Shown here piece after piece: positions 9,291 to 39,303 of a stretch of 64,000 nucleotides of DNA. The stretch spans positions 5,518,001-5,582,000 of the forward strand of contig NZ_CP107772.1 of assembly GCF_036345155.1 (NCBI RefSeq). The letters run 5' to 3'. Numbering within the stretch: the first letter of the stretch is position 1; every line of letters starts with the position of its first letter. A model generated the notes under the pieces. That model was given only the letters and a program-made list of their open reading frames with translations, was not told where the DNA came from and made no database searches. Origin of the DNA: Streptomyces sp. NBC_00582 (GTDB lineage: Bacteria > Actinomycetota > Actinomycetes > Streptomycetales > Streptomycetaceae). Position numbers and translations under genes: made by a program.

Positions 9291-10571
9291 TCACCCTTCC
9301 AGCAGGGCCTGTCCCACGTACTCCCCCTCCGCCGCACCGCCCGGCACCGCGAAGAGGCCGCTGGACTCATGGCGGATGTACTTCGACAGCGCGTCCCCGC
9401 GGTCCAGCTTCCGCTGGACGGTGACGAAACCGCGCAGCGGGTCCGCCTGCCAGCAGACGAACAGCAGACCCGCGTCGGGAGTGCCGTCCGCGTCGATGCC
9501 GTCGTGGTACGAGAAGGGCCGCCGCAGCATGGCCGCCCCGCCGTTCTGGTCGGGCCGGGTGATCCGGGCGTGCGCGTTCAGCGGGACGACCAGATCGCCC
9601 TTCGCGTCGGTCTTCTCCAGGTCCATCGCGGTGGTCTCGTCGCCCCCCGTCAGCGGCGCCCCGTTGGACTTGCGCCGCCCGATCACCTGCTCCTGCGCCG
9701 TCAGCGAGAGCTTCTCCCAGTCGTCGAGCAGCATGCGGATACGGCGTACGACGGCGTAGGAGCCGTTCGCCATCCAGGCGGGGTCCTTGGCGCTCTTCGC
9801 CGGGACGAAGACGCGGGTGTCGAAGTCGGACTCGGTCGGCTTGGGATTGCGGGTGCCGTCCATCTGGCCCATCAGGTTCCGGGCCGTCATGGGATGCGCG
9901 GTGGCGCCCGGCGTGCGGTTGAAGCCGTTCATCTGCCAGCGGACCTTCGCCGCGCTGCCCGCGTCCTTCTGGACCGCGCGCAGGGCGTGGAAGGCCACCA
10001 GGGCGTCGTCCGCACCGATCTGCACCCACAGATCCCCGTTGCTGCGGGCCTTGTCGAGGTGGTCGGAGGAGAAGTCGGGCAGCGGGTCCAGGGCGACCGG
10101 GCGCTGTTTCTCCAGACCGGTGCGGGCGAAGAAGCTGTTGCCGAAGCCGAAGGTGATCGTCAGCGAGGACGGCCCCGCGTCCCGGGCGATGTCCGTGTCG
10201 TCGTGCGGGGCCGCCTCGCCCGCCATCAGCCGGCGGGCCGTCTCCGACCAGCGGCGCAGCAGCGCGGCGGCCTCCTTGCGGCCCGCACCGGCCGCCAGGT
10301 CGAAGGCCACCAGATGCCCGCGCGCCTGGAGGCCCTGAGTGATGCCGGGCTGATGTTTCACGTGAAACGGGACATGCCCGGCGCCGATCGAGGACAGCGG
10401 GGTCGCCGCGGACGGCGCTGCCGCGTAGCCGGCGGTGGCCCCCGCCGTACCGAGCACCAGCCCGGTGGCCCCTGCGGTGCCGAGCAGTCGGCGTCGGGTC
10501 AGCCGGGCGGCCCCCTCCTGCGAGGAGGTGACCTCCGGCTCCTGGACTTCGGTGGTGGACTGGTCAGGCAT
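9291..10571 (-). CDS. Tat-exported DyP-type haem peroxidase
   Basis: A secreted or membrane-surface dye-decolourising peroxidase of 426 aa. The N-terminus holds a twin-arginine signal (TRRRLLGTAGATG, about residues 26-38) followed by an Ala-rich hydrophobic stretch. The family hallmark GXXDG is GQMDG at 235-239, with Asp238 the expected catalytic acid. ATG 10571 is preferred over an in-frame ATG 28 codons upstream because the Tat signal then has normal length. It follows the CopC-CopD fusion by 8 bp and belongs to the copper block; a DyP beside Sco1/CopC genes is a recurring actinobacterial arrangement. The coding sequence contains a parS site at 10355-10368. Confidence 0.9.
   Translation of the reverse strand: MPDQSTTEVQEPEVTSSQEGAARLTRRRLLGTAGATGLVLGTAGATAGYAAAPSAATPLSSIGAGHVPFHVKHQPGITQGLQARGHLVAFDLAAGAGRKEAAALLRRWSETARRLMAGEAAPHDDTDIARDAGPSSLTITFGFGNSFFARTGLEKQRPVALDPLPDFSSDHLDKARSNGDLWVQIGADDALVAFHALRAVQKDAGSAAKVRWQMNGFNRTPGATAHPMTARNLMGQMDGTRNPKPTESDFDTRVFVPAKSAKDPAWMANGSYAVVRRIRMLLDDWEKLSLTAQEQVIGRRKSNGAPLTGGDETTAMDLEKTDAKGDLVVPLNAHARITRPDQNGGAAMLRRPFSYHDGIDADGTPDAGLLFVCWQADPLRGFVTVQRKLDRGDALSKYIRHESSGLFAVPGGAAEGEYVGQALLEG
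10355..10368. promoter_or_regulatory. parS (ParB-binding) site
   Basis: GTTTCACGTGAAAC is a perfect 14-bp palindrome, preceded by T to give TGTTTCACGTGAAAC. It matches the bacterial parS core. It is embedded in the DyP gene, where it encodes FHVKH near residues 68-72. In Streptomyces such sites cluster around oriC. Confidence 0.88.
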
Positions 10572-10579
10572 GGTGCGGT

Positions 10580-12526
10580 TCAGCCGATCTGCGCGTTCTT
10601 GGAGACGGTCACCTGGTCGATGTCGGAGGTCCGCACGGTGACGGAGACCTTCCATTCGCCGGCCATCGGGATCTGCACCCCGTTCGCCGCCCAGTGGCCG
10701 GTGGTGATGTGGTCGGGGACGACGGGCAGCGGCCCGATGCTCTTCGCTTCGAGGGTGAAGGCGACCTTCACCTCGGGGACGTCGAAGCCGCGGCCGTTGG
10801 GCCTGGTCACATAGACGTGCATCTCGTTGGCGCCCGCCCGGGCGGGGTTGAGATCCACGCTGACGACGCCCTTGCCGTCGGCGCCCCCGGTGTCGAAGGA
10901 CATGTCCAGCGTCAGGGCACCCGAGGTGGAGTCCGACGAGGCGGCCGAGGAGGCGGACGAGGTGGCCTTGGCGGCCTCCTGCTCCGTACGGCCGGGTTCG
11001 GTCGAGGTCAGCGCGGTGGTGACGGCGAGGAGCACGAGGGCGACACCGGTCTCGGCGAGGACCGAGCGGCGCAGCCTGAAGCGGTTCGGGTCGCCGTTCC
11101 GCAGCCGCTTCTCCCGCGCGGTGTCCACGGCGGCGCGCTGCCGGGCGAGCTGCGCGGCACGCCGGGAGTCACCGGAGTCCTCCACGTCACCGGCCCCCTT
11201 GGAGCCCGTGGCCGCCTCCGAGCCCTTGGCTCCCGCCGGCGCGGTCACGGGGTCCTTCGCGGGCAGCTCCTTCTCGATTCCCTCACCGACGACCGCCGTG
11301 TCCCCCAGCCGTGCCGTCCACCGCCGGGAGATCCAGGCGATGCCGACGAGCACCGCCACCAGGCAGATCTTCACCAGGAGCAGTTGGCCGTAGCGGGTGT
11401 CCGTGAAGGCCGACCAGGAGCCGAGCTGCCGCCAGGACTGATAGACGCCGGTCGCGACCAGGGCGATGACACTGCCGAAGGCGACCTGGGAGAAGCGGCG
11501 GACCGCGCCGGCCTCGACGGGCCGGTCCGCGGGCGCCCGGTAGAGGGCGACGAGCAGCGCGGAGAGTCCGCCCAGCCAGGCGGCGACCGCCAGCAGGTGC
11601 AGGATGTCGACGGGCATCGCGATGCCCGGCTGCAGCCCGGTCGAGGCGTGCTCGGCCATGGCCCAGCTCGCGGCGAGCCCGGCGGCCACCACCGTGCCGC
11701 CGACCGCCAGCCCGAAGGTGAGGTCCCGCTTCTCCTCGTCCTCCCGCTTGTCGTACGCGCCGAACAGGACGGCGATGAACAGCGCGGCAGCGGCGAGCAG
11801 CAGCAGCCGGGAGACGAGGGCCGCACCCGTCTTGGTCTGCAGGACCTGTCCGAGCAGCTCCAGGTCGAAGACGTCGCCGACCTTCCCGGAGCCGGTGTAG
11901 GAGCCGCGCAGGAGCAGCAGGAACAGCGTGGCCGCGGTCATCACGAGCCAGCCGGAGACCACCAGCCGCTGCAGGGCCCGTACCCCGGTGCCGCGCTGCC
12001 AGCAGGCCAGCACGAAGGCGGCCCCGCCGACCATCACGATGAACCCGGCGTACGACATGTACCGGCCGAACCCGTAGAGCCCGCCGACGACCCCGCCGCC
12101 GGCCGCGGTGTCGGAGACCGAGACGCTGGTCTTCGAGGGGGAGCCGATGGAGAAGGTGTAGGCGCCGGCGACGGGATGGCTGTCGGCGGACACCACCTGG
12201 TACGTCACGGTGTACGTGCCGTCCGGCAGCCCCGAGTGGAGCTGCACGGCGTACGAGGTGCCGCTGACGTTGGACGGCTTGCCCTCGTCGACCTCGGCGC
12301 CCTTGGGGTCGAGGACGTGCAGCGAGTCGTCGTTCATGGAGACGGTCTCGGAGAAGGTCAGCGTCACCTGGGTGGGTGCCTTGTCGACCACCACCCCCTG
12401 CGCGGGGTCGCTGCCCGTCAGCGCGGCGTGCGCGGAGGCCGGTCCGGCGCCGGCGAGAAGCGCGCCGGTGACCGCCAGGAACAGCAGCACGATCATCCGG
12501 ACGCGGGGGGCGATGGTCTGCCTCAC
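10580..12526 (-). CDS. CopC-CopD fusion, copper import/resistance membrane protein
   Basis: A 648-aa YcnJ-like protein. A signal peptide ends near ASAHA; the new N-terminal His would be the CopC copper ligand. The CopC domain (about 34-130) includes SADSHPVAGAYTF. A run of hydrophobic segments (about 155-400) forms CopD with scattered His. A basic loop with a charged Ser/Gly linker and one more transmembrane segment near 495-515 lead to an extracytoplasmic beta domain (about 540-648). Family role: periplasmic copper capture and transport. It follows the PCuAC gene closely and precedes the DyP gene. Confidence 0.88.
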   Translation of the reverse strand: MRQTIAPRVRMIVLLFLAVTGALLAGAGPASAHAALTGSDPAQGVVVDKAPTQVTLTFSETVSMNDDSLHVLDPKGAEVDEGKPSNVSGTSYAVQLHSGLPDGTYTVTYQVVSADSHPVAGAYTFSIGSPSKTSVSVSDTAAGGGVVGGLYGFGRYMSYAGFIVMVGGAAFVLACWQRGTGVRALQRLVVSGWLVMTAATLFLLLLRGSYTGSGKVGDVFDLELLGQVLQTKTGAALVSRLLLLAAAALFIAVLFGAYDKREDEEKRDLTFGLAVGGTVVAAGLAASWAMAEHASTGLQPGIAMPVDILHLLAVAAWLGGLSALLVALYRAPADRPVEAGAVRRFSQVAFGSVIALVATGVYQSWRQLGSWSAFTDTRYGQLLLVKICLVAVLVGIAWISRRWTARLGDTAVVGEGIEKELPAKDPVTAPAGAKGSEAATGSKGAGDVEDSGDSRRAAQLARQRAAVDTAREKRLRNGDPNRFRLRRSVLAETGVALVLLAVTTALTSTEPGRTEQEAAKATSSASSAASSDSTSGALTLDMSFDTGGADGKGVVSVDLNPARAGANEMHVYVTRPNGRGFDVPEVKVAFTLEAKSIGPLPVVPDHITTGHWAANGVQIPMAGEWKVSVTVRTSDIDQVTVSKNAQIG

Positions 12527-37653: not shown

Positions 37654-39303
<1,650 letters not shown>

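Follow-up and report, generated by a model that had tools for sequence, protein, structure and literature searches.

An exact copy of the ParB-binding palindrome parS lies in frame within dtpA of Streptomyces sp. NBC_00582, at the N-terminal edge of the DtpA peroxidase domain, and probably serves as a working ParB-loading site of the origin-proximal array. We read the dtpA site as a real parS under joint selection on DNA and protein, and comparisons among orthologues point to repeated loss of an otherwise conserved DtpA glycine, replaced by valine under selection for the DNA site. This reading, drawn from sequence comparison, is based on the place of the site in the array, its identity to parS, its conservation beyond the needs of the codons, the recurrence of the Gly-to-Val change, and the covariation of core and flanking bases. 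ParB would bind the site, load as a clamp and spread, and the site would contribute to the anchoring and segregation of oriC by the ParB/SMC complex. The window referred to throughout is the whole 64,000-nucleotide stretch analyzed (C1:5,518,001-5,582,000); its relevant features are collected in Table I.

Table I. Features of the dtpA region in window coordinates
Feature	Position	Strand	Basis or remark
Exact parS palindrome GTTTCACGTGAAAC	10355..10368	.	Exact word search of the window
Codons TTT CAC GTG AAA CAT (F-H-V-K-H) enclosing the palindrome	10353..10367	-	Residues 69-73 of 426, DtpA
dtpA, DyP-type peroxidase, 426 aa, orthologue of SCO3963 and S. lividans DtpA	9291..10571	-	TIGR01412 and PDB matches
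CopC-CopD fusion gene, directly upstream of dtpA	10580..12526	-	Pfam CopC and CopD
Variable CopC-CopD linker, counterpart of the stretch that holds the alternative parS; parS absent from it in this genome	11165..11308	-	Linker comparison with 12 loci

The preliminary description of this DNA had reported a full 14-bp ParB palindrome across which the gene still encodes FHVKH. Both statements are correct: the palindrome is exact, no second exact copy occurs in the window, and it is read through by the minus-strand codons given in Table I. The accompanying view that segregation DNA here overlaps an enzyme gene also stands, in that the word has the parS sequence, is in frame within dtpA, and is conserved beyond codon needs. 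Window positions 10354-10368 read TGTTTCACGTGAAAC; the 16-bp form TGTTTCACGTGAAACA falls one base short, base 10369 being G. A search of the whole window at up to three mismatches returned a single further match, a 3-mismatch word at 38346, for an expectation from shuffled sequences of 0.84 matches per window. From base composition, an exact parS is expected 2e-5 times per window.

The 11.1-Mb genome contains 20 exact parS copies, against 0.004 expected by chance, and all of them lie between 5,341,926 and 5,648,098, a zone of 306 kb around dnaA. Four of the five one-mismatch words in the genome fall inside the same zone. The dnaA domain match spans 5,443,008-5,443,493, and a TIGR00180 match above cut-off (C1:5449926) places parB near dnaA, as for a cognate chromosomal parB. 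The dtpA site, at 5,528,355, is ~85 kb from the dnaA match, on the side that carries 15 of the 20 exact copies. The earlier suggestion that parS clustering would help to place the window is therefore sound, and puts it about 75-139 kb from dnaA. S. coelicolor is reported to have 23 central parS sites and one near an end, and 16 sites in S. venezuelae are supported by ChIP-seq (PMC4852455); a later paper plots 17 (PMC12511625), and a right-hand bias of parS has been described from 20 closed genomes (PMC8743542). The present array resembles those of S. coelicolor and S. venezuelae in its 14-bp palindrome, its clustering at oriC, and its one-sided excess, but differs in that this copy is in the middle of a gene, within a conserved protein motif. 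The accessible portions of published accounts of Streptomyces parS arrays mention neither codon-level conservation nor a residue trade-off.

The host gene scores 542 bits against TIGR01412 (cut-off 428), which places it in that family, and the top PDB relatives of its product are 4gt2 (SCO3963), aligned over residues 1-426, and 5mjh and 5map (DtpA). As these best relatives are SCO3963 and DtpA, members of the same gene family over the full length, dtpA is the better gene name. The translation contains LTRRRLLGTAG, which we take to be a putative twin-arginine (Tat) signal motif. S. lividans DtpA is described as a Tat substrate required for GlxA maturation (PMC4736821). Upstream on the same strand are genes for the CopC-CopD fusion, a PCu(A)C chaperone, a SCO1/SenC protein, and a DUF1775 protein. 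Among the nearest dtpA loci in named genomes (best 80 of 579), 78 are titled Streptomyces and two 'Actinobacteria bacterium'. None of the loci compared comes within four residues of SCO3963 over the compared stretch; at the protein level, S. coelicolor and S. lividans have MFHGKH where the window protein has PFHVKH.

The site coincides with the motif F-H-G-x-H-Q-x-G-I. Contrary to the preliminary description, which had put it in a poorly conserved region, no variation is seen across 178 distinct orthologues (190 sequences less 11 duplicates and one truncated) at the Phe, Gln, second Gly, or Ile of FHxxHQxGI, and Gly occupies residue 3 in 46 of the 47 siteless orthologues, with Val in none. Lys occupies residue 4 in 131/131 site-bearing orthologues and 0/47 siteless ones, and the codon preceding Phe is ATG in 105 of the 131. 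Some siteless rows carry indels or are doubtfully aligned in the motif (e.g., L150, L174, L178), and counts of site states in the set of 178 are distinct from prevalence, as it includes 21 dtpA loci picked as exact.

Conservation beyond what the codons require, a check that the preliminary description had itself proposed, is borne out. In the 131 site-bearing orthologues, Phe is encoded by TTT in 113, Lys by AAA in all 131, and the following His by CAT in 111, whereas downstream in the same genes TTT accounts for 0.9% of Phe, AAA for 5.1% of Lys, and CAT for 11% of His codons. The Gly codon is GGG in 78/78 and the Val codon GTG in 53/53 (downstream 23% of Gly and 39% of Val, respectively); the use of GTG follows partly from GGG to GTG being a one-step change. 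The site's Phe and Lys columns are the two that deviate most out of 320 codon columns compared across 81 orthologues. As a separate observation, Val codon column 247 of the 81-sequence alignment is GTA in 86% of orthologues, compared with 7% of the gene's Val codons, and is unexplained. The form GTTTCACGGGAAAC, hereafter the GGG form, is the nearest match to parS that still encodes F-H-G-K: its synonymous choices all follow parS, from which it departs only where Gly demands a G. Mismatches to parS are bimodally distributed over the 178 orthologues, with 0-2 in 131, three in one, four in one, and 5-10 in 45, and downstream in all 131 site-bearing genes there is no other word within two mismatches of parS.

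These figures bear on the simplest alternative, that a conserved peptide is coded in the ordinary way and matches parS by coincidence. Part of the peptide is indeed kept where the site is missing (Phe, as TTC, in 47/47, His in 29/47, and Gly in 46/47 siteless orthologues). Coincidence is nonetheless hardly credible, given that codon use yields a probability of 1e-5 per gene for the GGG-form codons encoding F-H-G-K-H, that the Lys at residue 4 accompanies the site without exception, that codon use in the motif is unlike the rest of the gene, and that the site belongs to a parS array.

A parS-like word, mostly with one mismatch and with the rare codons kept, is present at exactly this dtpA address in 90 of 150 sampled genomes of the genus: 76 have GTTTCACGGGAAAC, 11 the exact word, and three GTTCCACGTGAAAC. 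The pattern FH[G/V]KHQxGI gave 90 matches in these genomes (75 GTTTCACGGGAAAC, 11 exact, three GTTCCACGTGAAAC, and one in ordinary codons), and the GGG site of G080, which falls outside the pattern, was added to reach 90/150. The remaining 60 genomes showed no in-gene site. All 60 genomes lacking a pattern match do have a dtpA orthologue; 30 loci inspected from them comprised 28 siteless loci, one with a GGG site (L130), and one without the region (L133). In a sample of 392 genus genomes at least 27 have the exact in-gene site, by a slightly narrower pattern that demands G as the first base two codons before Phe and misses some exact forms. Within the family, dtpA was found in 78 of 81 genomes, and the in-gene site was absent from all 15 loci inspected in other genera. 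Because it is undetected in these 15 loci and in 60/150 genus genomes, the in-gene site is dispensable, which counts against the main reading. Prevalence was taken from these samples, since the best-80-of-579 locus set over-represents the site through overlap with the search peptide KHQPGITQ. The expectation that the palindrome recurs in orthologues near oriC thus holds for a parS-like word, but not for the perfect palindrome, which is a minority form. Judged by perfect palindromes, the site would look half absent, but the near-palindromes share the rare-codon signature.

The history of the site was followed on a dtpA gene tree from which the motif had been left out and whose root was set by a single outgroup locus. 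On one most-parsimonious path, 22 changes follow a siteless start: the GGG form is gained twice and the exact form once, GGG changes to exact ten times and to TTC-GTG four times, TTC-GTG changes to exact three times (the lineage of the window among them), and there are one loss and one two-mismatch form. On this one path, with the direct gain included, 15 Gly-to-Val changes are reconstructed, all in site-bearing lineages and none in siteless rows. Within the gene, GTTTCACGGGAAAC with ATG...CAT around it is probably the older form; it is as close as a word can come to parS while retaining the glycine of the enzyme. In several lineages, including that of the window, a change of Gly to Val would have permitted a perfect core, after which the outer bases may often have been lost, presumably as a perfect core needs them less. 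The outer bases ATG...CAT are indeed found with 93 of 94 one-mismatch cores and with four of 36 exact cores, and this contrast is retained in 10 independent contrasts on the tree (median sign-test p = 0.002).

A general compensation between core and flank at parS is unsupported. At the other parS sites of three genomes, with two dtpA GGG sites set aside and the fifth one-mismatch site of the window's genome left out, no such relation was seen (57 exact and 15 one-mismatch sites, p = 0.45). Since the relation is absent there, the pattern in dtpA may reflect relaxed selection on flanks specific to this locus rather than a general rule. An earlier idea, that the gene avoids the complete 18-bp palindrome, came from 0/19 exact cores having both flanks; the later count of 4/36 led to its replacement by relaxed flanks. 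One might go further and suppose that ParB-loading strength is under stabilizing selection here, such that centromere word and enzyme residue co-evolve, the Gly-to-Val change is repeatedly forced, and core and flank bases are traded to hold a set affinity; we regard this fuller scheme as tentative, with the balance somewhat against it.

Whether the commonest form works is a further matter. Position 6 is reported to be one of two that distinguish parS from the Noc site and to matter for ParB specificity (PMC7383237), so the position-6 mismatch of the GGG form counts against a working site. It could be that the exact sites function as parS whereas the GGG form acts very weakly or is a remnant, its codons kept by descent and not by present selection, and the two gains of this form on the one parsimony path would agree with that. 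We consider this improbable, since TTT, AAA, and CAT persist among orthologues in which roughly one residue in five, or more, differs (elsewhere TTT 0.9%, AAA 5%) and since the GGG word recurs near dtpA. In 86 of the 150 genomes there are 100 copies of GTTTCACGGGAAAC, against one match for the reversed control. Apart from the 76 dtpA sites, 24 extra copies remain (flanks were obtained for 18), of which 19 lie on the dtpA contig, 14 within 100 kb and all 19 within 425 kb; ten of these 19 are on nine contigs of 4.6-12.1 Mb, some other contigs being short. In S. coeruleorubidus and S. cyaneochromogenes together, 11 of 13 one-mismatch parS words are within the span of the exact copies, and the remaining two are the S. 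cyaneochromogenes dtpA site, 14 kb outside, and another 263 kb outside. These origin-near GGG and one-mismatch copies support the use of such variants by ParB. Several extra GTTTCACGGGAAAC copies (among L264-L280) are 20-55 kb from dtpA and may represent another conserved address.

The conserved word might also be the site of another DNA-binding protein, or an RNA hairpin, that resembles parS by chance. The GGG form with ATG...CAT does fold as RNA into a hairpin of -10.6 kcal/mol (z = -4.1), but the hairpin is not kept: folding is weak in exact forms that have lost the flanks (-3.8 and -4.8 kcal/mol), and the TTC form reaches -5.8 kcal/mol. An Rfam search gave no match, and with the hairpin lost in exact forms an RNA element was rejected. 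The word moreover equals parS, lies within the parS zone, and shifts in several lineages to the exact parS core and to no other palindrome, which makes this explanation very unlikely.

The site is a real-looking origin-proximal parS of the ordinary kind that seems to have struck an unusual evolutionary compromise with a conserved motif of the enzyme. Intragenic parS sites are already known: of the ten sites in P. aeruginosa, nine most likely fall within coding sequence (PMC4368675), and C. glutamicum has its parS1 within trpCF (PMC7083940). In contrast to those cases, the present site is traced across a genus and is accompanied by recurrent replacement of a conserved residue. Literature on intragenic parS, codons, and SCO3963, with most subscription papers outside its scope, yielded no account of a trade-off between parS and a residue; the 2002 S. 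coelicolor parS paper may already list the dtpA site. With several natural parS variants and some 15 inferred replacements of Gly by Val, this one address amounts to a countable natural experiment in which the price of a centromere site would be paid in enzyme sequence. It makes testable what parS strength is needed, which mismatches ParB tolerates in vivo, and whether DNA-level selection can override a conserved residue. It also warns that, where an origin-proximal protein has changed at a conserved residue, the cause need not lie in the function of the protein.

Because TGA closes one frame of GTTTCACGTGAAAC on each strand, an intragenic parS can be read only as F-H-V-K or as V-S-R-E-T, and both readings are found in the dtpA/CopC-CopD operon. 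Of 44 siteless loci whose sequence extends far enough upstream, 12 have an exact parS 0.81-0.95 kb upstream, compared with 0/129 site-bearing loci. The 14 copies at these 12 loci (L135, L140, L141, L144-L149, L152, L158, and L169, one siteless clade) are in the variable CopC-CopD linker, always in the V-S-R-E-T frame, and the CopC-CopD proteins concerned are 53-59% identical to that of the window. Substitution of the in-gene site by the upstream parS is a single change on the tree, and so is suggestive only. In the genome of the window, a further exact parS is located at C1:5449854-5449867 (L215) in the parB open reading frame, ahead of the ParB profile match, where it is read as V-S-R-E-T.
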